64,000 nt of DNA from positions 4,142,001 through 4,206,000 of the forward strand of contig NZ_PGET01000001.1 in the NCBI RefSeq assembly GCF_002797975.1. Direction: 5' to 3'. Below the pieces are notes generated by a model. It saw only the letters and a list, made by a program, of their open reading frames with translations. It was not told the origin of the DNA and made no database searches. Origin of the DNA: [Clostridium] celerecrescens 18A. Lineage in GTDB: Bacteria; Bacillota; Clostridia; Lachnospirales; Lachnospiraceae. Positions 7,855-39,845 of this stretch are shown one piece after another. The position numbers and the translations under genes are program-made. How positions within the stretch are numbered: the first letter of the stretch is position 1; each line of letters opens with the position of its first letter.

Positions 7855-8898
7855 TTACTGCCGTTCCGTTAATTGCTTTAAAACAAGGGCATCATAATCA
7901 ATCTCTCTTTGAGGGAAATTCTGAAACTGGTTCTGTCCTCTTCTCCCCTTAGTGCCTTGAGCCTGTTTATTATCACCGTTTTTTCCTGTTTTATGTTCTC
8001 CGCTTCTCATTCGGTCCGCATACTGTTCGTCCAGCTTTTTGATCTCCTCCATGGAGCGTACACCGGCTTTTTTCCAGCCCTCTAATATTTTGTCCGCATA
8101 CTGAAAGCTGGGCGCATGAGTGGCCGCCAGTGTCCGGTTACAGGCTTCAACAACCAGCTCCCTGGCAAATCCATAGGCGCGGAACCACCTGTCTATGAAG
8201 TCCTTCTCAAGATCTCCGGGTTTCCTGTCATTTAATCCAAAGGCTTTCATAACTGCAAAGGAATCCTTGGTAAAGGTAAGGGCAAAGCTCTTGGCATCCT
8301 CCACGGTCCGGAACCCTTTTTCATGCCAGCTGATAGCCACCGTTTCAATATAACGGATGCTGCTGTGACCGCCTTGCACACAGTATTCTACCACGTATTC
8401 TAAAAGCTCAGCAGGCATGTGCAGGCCGTCATATAGATAGGCGAACACCTCACACTCCCTTTGGGTGAATACCTTATTCATGTATTTCTGGGCTATATAA
8501 AGAAGCTGAGAGAAATCCTCATCTCCGGCCAGACCGCTTATTTTTTCTGGGGAGTAGACCATACGGCGGCCGGATGGTGCCGGTTTCGCTTGTTCCTCTG
8601 CGATTATTCCGGAACAGGCTGTTTCTGATGCTGCTGGAGATACCGTCTGTTTTAATGGAACTTCCTCTTTGAGGACTCCGGCATTCTTCCAGTATGATAA
8701 GGCCCGCGATACATCTGCTTCTGTATGGTTTAACGCATCCGCGATCATAGAAATGGTGATTTCTTCTCCTTCATGGCGCATTAAATATAAATATTCTTTT
8801 ATGTATTCCCCATTGGCCGCAGCCATGTATTCGTCAATGAACTCATTGGTAATGACCGTAACGTTGATCTTGAAACTGCTTTTAATATTCAATGTCAT
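7855..8898 (-). CDS. dnaD: DnaD-domain primosome protein
   Basis: About 347 residues. The N-terminal winged-helix region (DALNHTEADVSRALSYWKNAG) and two C-terminal DnaD modules with the conserved W-x3-Y/F pattern (RWFRAYGFARELVVEAC) mark the DnaD/DnaB-like family used in replication initiation and restart. The C-terminus is basic and low complexity (KTGKNGDNKQAQGTKGRR). The open frame continues upstream to 9021 through a dispersed structured repeat; the real start is ATG 8898, after AGGTGAGGG. A DnaA-box cluster and the repeat lie directly upstream. Confidence 0.88.
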   Translation of the reverse strand: MTLNIKSSFKINVTVITNEFIDEYMAAANGEYIKEYLYLMRHEGEEITISMIADALNHTEADVSRALSYWKNAGVLKEEVPLKQTVSPAASETACSGIIAEEQAKPAPSGRRMVYSPEKISGLAGDEDFSQLLYIAQKYMNKVFTQRECEVFAYLYDGLHMPAELLEYVVEYCVQGGHSSIRYIETVAISWHEKGFRTVEDAKSFALTFTKDSFAVMKAFGLNDRKPGDLEKDFIDRWFRAYGFARELVVEACNRTLAATHAPSFQYADKILEGWKKAGVRSMEEIKKLDEQYADRMRSGEHKTGKNGDNKQAQGTKGRRGQNQFQNFPQREIDYDALVLKQLTERQ

Positions 8899-8922: not shown

Positions 8923-9058
8923 AGTCCGCAGTGCAGCGAGAGAAGCCTGTGGCTTCTCTCGCTCACGGACTTTCGCCCTATGAAATAGGCCATGGGAAGA
9001 TTTTCCTATGTGCAAGCACAACGAAAATTTCCCGTGCCCTATTTCGCACTGCTCATTG
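8923..9058 (-). repeat. Structured dispersed repeat, copy 1 (5' leader of dnaD)
   Basis: 136 bp, about 80% identical to 37728-37864 outside one hairpin. An outer stem pairs 8928-8934 (GCAGTGC) with 9046-9052. Hairpin A is a perfect 13-bp stem (8935-8947 with 8951-8963). Hairpin B is a long nested stem closed by GAAATAGG (8982-8989) with CCTATTTC (9038-9045), containing GGGAA/TTCCC and GTGC/GCAC. It ends 24 bases before the dnaD start. Function is unknown; it could be a cis-acting RNA leader or a small mobile repeat. Confidence 0.8.
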
Positions 9059-9107
9059 CTTTCGTGAATATCATACCACAGGTCGTATCAAAAGAAAATA
9101 GCCGTAG

Positions 9108-36749: not shown

Positions 36750-37694
36750 TTAATCCAGGATCAGCCTTGCTGCTCCATAAATTCCTGCATCATTTCCCAG
36801 CTTCGCCAGGACGATTCCGCTCTTATTTTTAGAAATCGGTGAGTACTTGTCAAAATGTTTATATAGTATATCAATTAAGAAGGATCCGGCTTTTGAAACG
36901 CCGCCCCCAATAACAAAGACTTCTGGGTCTGTTACCATGGAAATCTGGGCCAGGGCAAGACCCAGGTAATGGCCCACTACTTCCATAACCTCACAGGCCA
37001 GTGCGTCCCCTTCCTTGGCAGCATCCAGCACATCCTTTGCCGTTACGTTGTCTCCATATGTCCTTAAAACGGATGGGGTATCTTTTGCAGCCATTTTTCT
37101 CCTGGCTTCTCTTGCTATGCCTGTTGCGCTGGCAATCTGCTCCACGCAGCCTACGCCTCCGCAATTACAGCTTTCTGTTTCATCGTCACGGATATGGACA
37201 TGACCGATCTCCCCGGCCAGGCCATGCTTTCCGGCAACGATCTTCTGATCGATGATCACGCCGCCGCCTACTCCGGTGCCAAGGGTGACCATAACGATAT
37301 CATCATAGCCTTTTCCGCCTCCCTGCCACATCTCTCCAAGTGCTGCAACATTGGCATCATTGCCGCTTTTTACTGGGATGCCGTGAAGCATTTCACTCAG
37401 TTCTTTTTCTGGATACATATCACGCCAGCCTAAGTTTACGCAGACTTCTACATATCCGCTGGGCATGACTGGGCCTGGGACTCCCATGCCTGCACCTTTT
37501 ACCTCTTCCAGAGGAATATTTAGCTCTTTAAGGGTTTTAAGTATGGAAGCGGCGGTGTCGCTTAGGATGTGTTTTCCGCCTTCTTCCTGTCTGGTGGGAA
37601 CTTCCCACTTATGGATGAGCTCTCCTGTTATTTCAAATATTCCGATTTTTACAGATGTACCGCCAACATCTACACCGACACATTTCATTCCCAT
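36750..37694 (-). CDS. glk: ROK-family glucokinase
   Basis: A 314-residue sugar kinase. GVDVGGTSVKIGIF is the ATP-binding phosphate loop, GNDANVAALGE the sugar site with catalytic Asp, LGTGVGGG the second phosphate loop, and CNCGGVGCVEQ the ROK zinc motif. It makes glucose 6-phosphate for glycolysis. ATG 37694 follows AAGGAG. The frame runs upstream to 37826 through the second copy of the structured repeat and gives a false N-terminus nearly identical to that seen before dnaD. It lies downstream of tkt on the same strand. Confidence 0.92.
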   Translation of the reverse strand: MGMKCVGVDVGGTSVKIGIFEITGELIHKWEVPTRQEEGGKHILSDTAASILKTLKELNIPLEEVKGAGMGVPGPVMPSGYVEVCVNLGWRDMYPEKELSEMLHGIPVKSGNDANVAALGEMWQGGGKGYDDIVMVTLGTGVGGGVIIDQKIVAGKHGLAGEIGHVHIRDDETESCNCGGVGCVEQIASATGIAREARRKMAAKDTPSVLRTYGDNVTAKDVLDAAKEGDALACEVMEVVGHYLGLALAQISMVTDPEVFVIGGGVSKAGSFLIDILYKHFDKYSPISKNKSGIVLAKLGNDAGIYGAARLILD

Positions 37695-37727: not shown

Positions 37728-37864
37728 AGTCCGCAGTGAAGCTGGTAAAACCGCATGTTTTACCAGCTCACGGGCATTCGCCCTATGAAATAGGCCATGA
37801 GAAGATTTTCTTATGTGCAGGCACAACGAAAACTTTCTCCTGTCCTATTTCTCACTGCTCATTG
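37728..37864 (-). repeat. Structured dispersed repeat, copy 2 (5' leader of glk)
   Basis: 137 bp, matching 8923-9058. The outer stem pairs 37733-37739 (GCAGTGA) with 37852-37858; in copy 1 the last pair is C-G rather than A-T. Hairpin A is a perfect 12-bp stem (37740-37751 with 37757-37768) of quite different sequence from copy 1. Hairpin B keeps GAAATAGG/CCTATTTC and has GAGAA/TTCTC in place of GGGAA/TTCCC. It sits between the tkt stop and glk, ending 33 bases before the glk start. Confidence 0.8.
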
Positions 37865-37865
37865 T

Positions 37866-39845
37866 TTAGATGGATTTTGCAGCCTCTGCTACTTTCTCTG
37901 CTGTGAATCCGAAATGTTCAAATAAAAGATTTGCAGGACCGCTGGCACCGAAGCCCTTCATGGTCACATACGTTCCATCCAGGCCTACATATTTGCCCCA
38001 GCCGAAATCACTTAATGCTTCTACTGCCACTCGCTTGCGGACGGCTTTTGGAAGAACGGATTCCTTATACTCTTCGGTCTGTTCCTCGAACAGATCCATA
38101 CAAGGCATGGAAACCACACGTACCTTTTTGTCGGCAAGAAGCTTCTTCGCATTGACTGCCAGCTCCACCTCGGAACCGCTTGCAATCAGAATGATCTCAG
38201 GTGTGCCTTCACAGTCATCGATTACATAGCCTCCTTTTAAGGCTTCCTTGCTGCTTCCCGGCATAGGTGTTAAGTTCTGTCTTGTAAGAACAAGAGCGGT
38301 AGGGGTTTTCTTAGAGGTCAGTGCAGAATACCAGGCTGCTGCTGTCTCTGTCTCATCACAGGGACGGAACACATGGAAATTAGGCATTGCCCTTAACATG
38401 GCAAGCTGTTCAATCGGTTCATGGGTTGGTCCATCCTCTCCAACGCCGATGCTGTCATGGGTAAATACAAAGGTCAGCGGAACGCCCATTAACGAGGACA
38501 AGCGTGCCATTGGCTTTGTATAATCGCTAAATACGAAAAAGGTTGCTATATAGGTGCGAAGGCCTCCGTGAAGCATCATTCCGTTTCCGATCGCGGTCAT
38601 GCCAAGCTCTCTTACGCCAAAATGCAGGTTGCGGCCGCCGCCGTTTTCCTTTGAAAAATCACCCATATCGGACATGTTGGTCTTATTGGAAGGAGCAAGG
38701 TCTGCAGAACCGCCGATTAAGTTTGGCATATAAGTCTTTAAACGGTTTAAAACCTGTCCGGATAAATTCCTGGTCGCATCTGCCTTTTCAGACCGTTTCC
38801 AGAAGTCTCCGCATTTTTCAATGGCCTTTTCTCCTGCATCCGGGTCATGGTATGCATTCCAAAGTTCTTCCATATCAGGATACTCCTGGCAGTATGCTGC
38901 AAACATTACATTCCATGCCGCTTCTGTTTCTGCCTTATCCTCTGCGATCTTCTGATAATGGCTGTACACTTCTTCAGGAACATAGAATGGCTCCATGGAA
39001 GGCCAGCCTAAGTTTTCCTTCAGAGCTGTCACATTGTCAGCTCCCAGAGGCTCTCCGTGAGCACTGGCTTTTCCCTGCTTAGCAGGACAGCCATAGCCGA
39101 TCTGGGTCTTGATGGTAATAAAGGAGGGATGTTCCGTATCTGCTTTCGCTTCTTCAAGAGCTCGTCCAATGGCTTCTAGATCGTTTCCATCCTCAACGGT
39201 AATGGTCTGGAAATGGAAGGCTTCCATGCGCTTTTTCACATCCTCAGTGAATGCGATGTCCGTGCTCCCTTCAATGGAGATCTGGTTGGAGTCATAAAGA
39301 ACGATTAATTTTCCCAGGCCAAGGGTACCAGCCAGAGAAAATACCTCAGAGGAAATACCTTCCATCATACATCCATCTCCGCCCAGTACATAGGTGTAAT
39401 GGTCAACAACCGGATAATTCTCTTTGTTGAATACGGATGACAGATGTTTCTCGGCAATAGCCATACCAACTGCCATACCCATACCTGCACCCAAAGGTCC
39501 TGTGGTAGCTTCCACGCCTACGGTATGACCATACTCCGGATGTCCTGGAGTCTTGGAGCCATGCTGGCGGAAATTCATTACATCCTCTTTTGATAAATTC
39601 CCATAGCCAAATAAATGGAGCAGGGAATACAAAAGCATGGAACCATGACCTCCGGATAAAATAAAGCGGTCTCTGTTGGCCCAGTCCGGATCTGCCGGAT
39701 TGTGGTTCATGTGGTTTGCCCATAATTCATACGCTGCTGATGCGCAGCCTAAGGGAAGTCCCGGATGTCCGGAATTGGCTTTTTGGATGGCATCCGCTGA
39801 TAGGACACGGATTGCATTGACTGACATGGTATCGATGTTGCTCAT
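37866..39845 (-). CDS. tkt: Transketolase
   Basis: A 659-residue thiamine diphosphate enzyme of the pentose phosphate pathway, in one piece (not the split form common in some clostridia). Thiamine-binding GDGCMMEG (about 153-160) with IVLYDSNQISIEG, pyrimidine-domain FVFTHDSIGVGEDGPTHEP and sugar-phosphate residues SGSEVEL are visible. The start overlaps the DUF5711 stop by four bases. A structured repeat lies just after the stop codon, before glk. Confidence 0.95.
   Translation of the reverse strand: MSNIDTMSVNAIRVLSADAIQKANSGHPGLPLGCASAAYELWANHMNHNPADPDWANRDRFILSGGHGSMLLYSLLHLFGYGNLSKEDVMNFRQHGSKTPGHPEYGHTVGVEATTGPLGAGMGMAVGMAIAEKHLSSVFNKENYPVVDHYTYVLGGDGCMMEGISSEVFSLAGTLGLGKLIVLYDSNQISIEGSTDIAFTEDVKKRMEAFHFQTITVEDGNDLEAIGRALEEAKADTEHPSFITIKTQIGYGCPAKQGKASAHGEPLGADNVTALKENLGWPSMEPFYVPEEVYSHYQKIAEDKAETEAAWNVMFAAYCQEYPDMEELWNAYHDPDAGEKAIEKCGDFWKRSEKADATRNLSGQVLNRLKTYMPNLIGGSADLAPSNKTNMSDMGDFSKENGGGRNLHFGVRELGMTAIGNGMMLHGGLRTYIATFFVFSDYTKPMARLSSLMGVPLTFVFTHDSIGVGEDGPTHEPIEQLAMLRAMPNFHVFRPCDETETAAAWYSALTSKKTPTALVLTRQNLTPMPGSSKEALKGGYVIDDCEGTPEIILIASGSEVELAVNAKKLLADKKVRVVSMPCMDLFEEQTEEYKESVLPKAVRKRVAVEALSDFGWGKYVGLDGTYVTMKGFGASGPANLLFEHFGFTAEKVAEAAKSI

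Follow-up and report, generated by a model that had tools for sequence, protein, structure and literature searches.

The 64,000-nucleotide stretch of the [Clostridium] celerecrescens 18A genome analysed here (the window) carries two copies of an element of approximately 150 bp, which is probably a non-autonomous mobile element specifying a predicted four-way-junction RNA that acts in cis as a 5′ leader. Genome comparisons establish the insertion of the element, its position, its direction and the slow divergence of its core; the copies are dispersed, being cleanly absent from some loci in related species and decaying at others. A previous reading of the window from its sequence alone had proposed either a cis-acting leader or a small mobile repeat. 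The present analysis favours both together: the element is inserted and decays, and it is also placed as a leader, with 34 of 36 loci co-oriented with the next gene, and we infer that it is transcribed as such.

Both window copies, and the genes around them, lie on the minus strand, which corresponds to the RNA strand. Copy 1, before dnaD, occupies positions 8924..9059 (covariance model match G000:C1:4150924-4151059:-, 146 bits, G000 being the genome of this strain), and copy 2, between tkt and glk, positions 37729..37865 (G000:C1:4179729-4179865:-, 148 bits). These bounds are one base off those of the sequence-only reading, which had otherwise placed both copies correctly; the coordinates likewise place the start codons of dnaD and glk 24 and 33 nt away, and the stems it described were recovered by folding in both copies. 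Each copy, when folded alone, is predicted to form a four-way junction composed of an outer stem (P1), a long hairpin with a GUGCUUGCAC-type apex (P2), a short hairpin (P3) and a variable hairpin (P4). The predicted fold of copy 1 places the 5′ and 3′ strands of P1 at 9046..9052 and 8928..8934, P2 with its GUGCUUGCAC apex at 8982..9045, P3 at 8967..8978 and P4, the hairpin A of the earlier reading, at 8935..8963, while in copy 2 P2, P3 and P4 are predicted at 37787..37851, 37772..37783 and 37740..37768. The calculated fold energies are -75.7 kcal/mol (z -8.4) for copy 1 and -61.4 kcal/mol (z -7.9) for copy 2, and 0 of 200 shuffles were as stable as the native copy in either case. A pseudoknot between the 3′ CGGACT and the AGTCC of copy 1 was discarded, as AGTCC is not kept in other copies. 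The copies share 82% identity and are paralogs, so that the differences between them are not, by themselves, evidence of selection.

The conserved unit extends approximately 9 nt upstream of the bounds originally given, with the consensus TTCACGAAA. In copy 1 this 5′ lead (9060..9068) is kept across 37 loci and missing from the element-free allele of 17 genomes, and the predicted extended -10 box of dnaD (TGG-TATGAT) lies upstream at 9070..9078, TATGAT being likewise present in 17 of 17 element-free alleles. The degenerate lead of copy 2 (37866..37874), delimited by comparison of filled and element-free alleles, holds the tkt stop codon TAA (37866-37868). Downstream of the copies lie dnaD (7855..8898; TIGR01446 DnaD domain, above cut-off) and glk (ROK glucokinase, 36750..37694; TIGR00744, above cut-off), while tkt (37869..39365) precedes copy 2, its 3′ part matching TIGR00232 over 499 aa with 608 bits, below the full-length cut-off of 682 because the query is a fragment. 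An Rfam scan of the window returned 0 families at gathering score, a scan of both copies and their flanks returned 0 terminator-like sites, and a two-hexamer promoter scan detected nothing at either copy.

The sequence-only reading had recommended a covariance-model search of this genome and of other Lachnospiraceae, and had held that a single genome-wide pair would weaken a regulatory role; the search showed that the pair belongs to a dispersed family, of which G000 has 19 full-length copies. A blastn search of the genome returned 18 matches, far more than chance would give; two of them are antisense and fall within copies already counted, leaving 16 distinct copies, and the covariance model R1 was built from these 16 aligned to the RNA strand. 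In G000, R1 gave 34 matches, of which 19 score above 84 bits and are the full-length sense copies; 11 of the other 15 represent the palindromic P2 read on the opposite strand. Matches were found in 33 of 61 genomes (own included), with 24 of 25 in the genus, in 76 of 200 Lachnospiraceae genera (own included), and in three of 299 phylum-wide genomes, own included, all three from the family itself. Because no more than 9 to 54 candidates per genome were scored in these wide searches, their copy numbers are lower bounds, and antisense matches of the palindromic P2 remain among them. Four genomes of other Lachnospiraceae genera (G356, G341, G485 and G414) gave 12 to 15 matches each, with 16 candidates scored and antisense matches kept; hence, amplification seems to have occurred in other genera too. 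For the analysis of individual loci, 132 copies from eight of the 25 genus genomes (all 19 of G000, elsewhere those among the matches listed, down to ~89 bits) were grouped into 36 flank clusters, or 37 loci once one cluster had been divided manually; 14 clusters are represented in at least five genomes and 13 in one genome only.

Tandem arrangements were also observed. At L162 (1835-3055; G012:C1, ~4100170-4101390) an array of 8.7 units of 140 bp with 95% matches is present, each unit holding most of the element. At L068 and L301 (G023, L. xylanisolvens CP070896.1), a gene whose product ends ...MENQDY and looks CdaR-like by eye is followed directly by three partial copies in tandem, and a copy occupies this position in at least 12 genus genomes. 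Furthermore, short tandem repeats composed of the 3′ half of P4 and a CTGCGGACT-like sequence are located 3′ of the element at L146, L150 and L105.

The clearest case of insertion is the dnaD site, which is element-free in 17 other genomes of the genus, with no remnant in any of them. Six genomes are filled at this site (degenerate in G012), G014 retains a remnant, and the allele of G005 was not called. The distance between anchors is 169-175 bases in filled alleles, 73 in the G014 remnant and 23 in empty alleles, the latter consisting of TATGATA, approximately ten bases, AAAAAGGTGAGG and the start codon. The tkt-glk site is filled in three of 25 genomes, carries a remnant in four and is element-free in 18, and in the filled alleles the lead of the element supplies the tkt stop codon. 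With regard to the 3′ end of tkt, element-free alleles terminate in TTA TAA (16 of 18) or TTA TCA TAA (2 of 18), and the filled alleles of G000, G009 and G012 in ATC TAA, with the stop inside the lead and the last codons rewritten at insertion.

Element-free alleles were also recovered at L109, L112, L115, L138, L142, L149, L153, L157 and L168. When 14 further loci were compared, sister species that seemed to lack the element often proved to carry a remnant, and part of the apparent species-specificity thus reflects loss and not gain; indeed, remnants at L109 and L142 in other species imply that the element-free allele there may itself have arisen by loss. In these comparisons, the polarity of insertion is firm only where remnants are absent, as at dnaD. 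The frequency of decay indicates that the element is dispensable at many loci. In the remnants at L418 and L419 (G006 and G014), the whole structure between both P1 strands is deleted, a pattern expected of palindrome-mediated deletion.

The junctions are inconsistent, with host bases differing or missing at several loci. A target-site duplication was not apparent, as the flanks of the same copy were no more alike than shuffled pairs; at the best fixed offsets, 33-55 of 1000 shuffles matched the observed likeness, which is marginal, and other offsets pointed in the opposite direction. Transposases of the Y1 (REP/IS200-type) family were considered as the present mobiliser and rejected, since 0 matches were found in the two element-rich genomes G000 (19 fetched copies) and G009 (23), and the enzyme occurs in 20 of 25 genus genomes whatever their copy number. 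This absence is compatible with a past Y1 mobiliser that has since been lost.

The 5′ boundary of the element is often preceded by promoter-like sequence. When 37 loci were aligned at their 5′ ends, conservation began with TTCACG, a single base downstream of a hexamer resembling TATAAT. This box (matching at 5 or more of 6 positions) lies directly upstream at 22 of the 37 loci, as compared to a background of 2.2% in the flanks, and is separated from the lead by one base in 19 cases and by none in three. A TGn motif accompanies 17 of the 22 boxes, and TTGACA-like sequence at a spacing of 16-18 is enriched upstream of them (P about 1e-4); the dnaD copy itself has an extended -10 and a poor -35 (best 3 of 6). 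The box is also present in the element-free allele at all eight loci recovered (dnaD, L109, L115, L138, L142, L153, L157 and L168) of nine sought, L144 having given no alignment. In a wider set, a box was present in 36 of 94 matches (some Lacrimispora among them), these being what remained of 112 after 18 were dropped by hand (six antisense, two truncated, one from a duplicate contig and nine second or weak matches). The other 15 of the 37 loci, glk among them, lack a box of at least 5 of 6, and at ten of these 15 a co-oriented gene ends within 11 bases of the start of the element or runs into it. The alignments show an element that often sits directly behind a -10 box which element-free alleles share, or close behind a preceding stop codon.

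These promoter-like features lend themselves to another interpretation, in which the element is a multicopy trans-acting sRNA gene, each boxed copy having its own promoter and the adjacent gene being incidental. The extended -10 boxes and the -35 enrichment, together with the constant segments common to the copies, are in keeping with such a gene. However, 34 of 36 copies face the downstream gene, which would be unexpected for free-standing genes, in ten of the 15 box-less loci a co-oriented gene ends at most 11 bases before the element or extends into it, and no terminator-like site was seen at the two window copies scanned or at 14 others inspected by eye. We regard this interpretation as unlikely.

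The sequence-only reading had further argued that copies in either orientation, inside or behind genes and with no covariation, would favour a plain repeat. As to orientation, the next downstream gene is co-oriented at 34 of 36 loci; the gene pairs around the element are tandem in 22 cases to 1, and divergent rather than convergent by 12 to 1. In the wider set, a simple ORF rule, used for all neighbouring genes, placed a gene no more than 600 nt downstream of 81 of the 94 matches, and this gene is co-oriented in 67 cases and opposite in 14. The pattern expected of a plain repeat was not seen, although the ten box-less loci noted above lie close behind, or overlap, the preceding co-oriented gene.

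Seven downstream genes were checked against family models and the others were read by eye only. A DnaD-domain protein, a ROK glucokinase, FtsE, a xanthine PRTase, HisB and RsmD scored above cut-off, and the seventh, a precorrin-8X methylmutase-like protein, below it. A single functional regulon was rejected, as no theme unites these seven genes. This bears directly on the possibility of a classical leader regulon, in which an attenuator or riboswitch would impose one signal on all carrier genes. The 5′ leader position, the slow divergence of the unpaired segments and an asymmetric apex that is canonical in 106 of 132 copies would all suit a regulon of this kind. Against it stand the lack of a theme among the seven genes, the gain and loss of sites between species, and the 0 terminator-like sites at the two window copies, and we consider it quite unlikely.

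The sequence-only reading had called for covariation to be tested statistically, and paired changes proved far more frequent than in shuffled alignments. Across 112 matches from 99 loci, in an alignment (A3) that was fitted to the structure and includes six antisense rows, two-sided changes affect 1419 pair cells as compared to a shuffled mean of 377; 0 of 500 shuffles reach this value, and slid structures give 252-316. In the same family-wide alignment, 91% of cells pair, and 48 of 51 pairs exhibit a two-sided change (shuffled mean 40.1). Among orthologs (14 loci, all eight genomes), P2 has 344 double-compensated comparisons where shuffles give 85, P4 has 251 where they give 54, and P1 (8 vs 2.4) and P3 (12 vs 4.7) hardly vary and lie within the shuffle range.

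The paired changes had originally been taken as the mark of selection for structure; while the changes themselves are real, they are insufficient alone to support that claim, since the hairpins bear marks of template switching. P2 and P4 are near-perfect DNA palindromes, the tip of P2 is inverted in L028, and it has been made symmetric in L029 and L130. Template switching is reported to invert spacers and to repair arms (PMC8604942, PMC8794818), and RNA hairpins can arise and persist through it (PMC8794818). Switching at the DNA level may account for part of the paired-change signal, and covariation alone is not proof of selection on structure. The P4 loop was compared in those copies whose loop is three bases long (103 of 132): of 127 ortholog pairs that differ, 24 have loops that are exact reverse complements, and each of these 24 differs at all three bases (24 of the 58 pairs with three changes). 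The corresponding share across loci is 13.4% (490 of 3660), so that the ortholog figure is only modestly higher.

These marks also speak for a plain DNA repeat (MITE or REP-like), non-autonomous and devoid of RNA function, whose pairing would be maintained by template switching and whose position would reflect target choice. Element-free sites and decay, the inverted tip of L028 and the symmetric tips of L029 and L130, the reverse-complemented P4 loops (24 of 127) and the capacity of switching to create or maintain hairpins, as reported in PMC8794818, are all consistent with such a repeat. It is countered by the asymmetric apex, canonical in 106 of 132 copies even though switching would render it symmetric, by the 13.4% cross-locus share of reverse-complemented loops, and by the slow divergence of the unpaired core, which template switching does not explain. 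A repeat of this type is distinctly improbable.

The divergence of individual segments after insertion was measured as ortholog mismatches per pair-site at 14 loci, with four to six genomes each from six genomes used (15 loci qualified, one of which was dropped as it lacked a 137-nt reference). Mismatch is lowest in the core, at 2.4% in the inner lead, 2.6 and 4.1% in the P1 strands, 5.0% in J23, 4.9% in P3 and 3.2% in J34, followed by the apex (6.0%), the tail GGAC (7.4%) and the outer lead (7.6%). The arms of P2 and P4 reach 10.6-12.1% and the P4 loop 22.6%. The flank just downstream differs at 27.2%, as compared to 12.6% for the upstream flank and 9.6% for the promoter stretch; since the upstream values are only 9.6-12.6%, the contrast is sharp only between core and downstream flank, and modest relative to upstream sequence. 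At the level of single loci, P3 is lower than the downstream flank in 13 of 14, and the apex lower than the upstream flank in ten of 14. Gene conversion between paralogs was dismissed as the cause of the conserved constant parts because it is too rare (P2 in four, P4 in seven and the whole element in two of 115 cases). Slow core divergence combined with rare gene conversion makes the core RNA parts look selected where they have landed. As evidence of selection, the conserved asymmetric apex and the slow unpaired core carry more weight than covariation.

The sequence-only reading knew of no named family for the element. While no gathering-level match exists, Clostridiales-1 (RF01699) emerged as a sub-threshold relative. 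RF01699 gives 0 gathering matches in the window and scores 31.4 and 33.3 bits against copies of the element (own-genome best 36.2), where 48 bits are needed for gathering. With the genome search relaxed to E<=10, matches also appear in four of 14 control genomes, none of them over the cut-off. Weak Rfam matches to traJ-II and several microRNAs were set aside as being far below gathering. Copy L002 aligns to RF01699 over its full length (1-166), on the same strand, end to end and with the same order of stems, namely an outer stem around three hairpins: a long one with the GUGCUUGCAC apex, a short one and a third. The hairpin lengths and most of the sequence differ. Conversely, when R1 is run against 30 RF01699 loci, only three reach E<0.01, with position and strand as expected. 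RF01699 is found in 56 of 295 genomes of the order (41 above cut-off), with at least two matches in 43 of the 56 (nine candidates scored each), and is, like the element, multicopy and leader-placed, the downstream gene being co-oriented in 23 of 26 cases. These 26 are the loci with a downstream gene among the 28 of 30 used (L370 and L396 were left out); nine of the 28 have a box of at least 5 of 6 anywhere in ten offsets, a count with no background rate alongside, which does not establish for RF01699 the fixed -10 spacing seen at many loci of the element. We read the element from these alignments as a sister subfamily of Clostridiales-1 and not as a member of it.

Rfam types Clostridiales-1 as 'Gene; sRNA', and the table of Weinberg 2010 lists it as a probable RNA that is probably not cis-regulatory ('cis-reg: n'; PMC2864571). 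Both entries speak for the trans-acting sRNA gene considered above. Among the matches listed in a literature search for Clostridiales-1 or RF01699, neither mobility nor leader placement was mentioned.

For the preferred reading, a mobile element acting in cis from the 5′ leader, the following sequence of events may be envisaged. Insertion would, as a best guess, favour the DNA between -10 and +1, which is melted in the promoter open complex; access to the melted strand would explain sequence, spacing and direction at once. Alternatively, precise 5′ ends might have been selected from among other insertions. For copies behind stop codons, either the target would have to be less strict or the box would have been lost afterwards. 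Transcripts from the host promoter would then start at, or a few bases from, the element, thereby giving unrelated mRNAs the same compact structured 5′ end. This structured end would be kept for its action in cis, most simply protection of the mRNA 5′ end or the setting of translation. A more specific version, in which the element is targeted to transcription initiation, inserts in melted -10/+1 DNA, recaps unrelated mRNAs and belongs, as one branch, to a superfamily spanning the Lachnospirales and including Clostridiales-1, is possible, and we advance it tentatively.

Several known systems resemble parts of this scheme. REP/BIME and MITE-type repeats are short, palindromic, intergenic and non-coding, and they insert and decay, as does the element. 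In contrast to these repeats, the element has a fixed transcriptional direction, constrained unpaired segments, a fixed -10 spacing in many copies and no clear target duplication, with no Y1 transposase in G000 or G009. The leaders of ermC and aprE are stabilising structures at the mRNA 5′ end, where the element would likewise place a stable structure at or near that end; unlike them, it reuses one sequence family before many unrelated genes. Finally, the yeast retrotransposon Ty3 inserts at the transcription start sites of Pol III genes, an analogy for the -10/+1 targeting reading only.

These findings suggest that the element and the related Rfam family, catalogued as an 'sRNA gene', are both dispersed elements which reside in 5′ leaders and are oriented with transcription. 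Insertion targeted to the -10/+1 region, if true, would be an unusual target choice in bacteria. Furthermore, the filled, element-free and decayed alleles of closely related species provide a natural experiment in which selection on RNA structure may be weighed against mutation by template switching.
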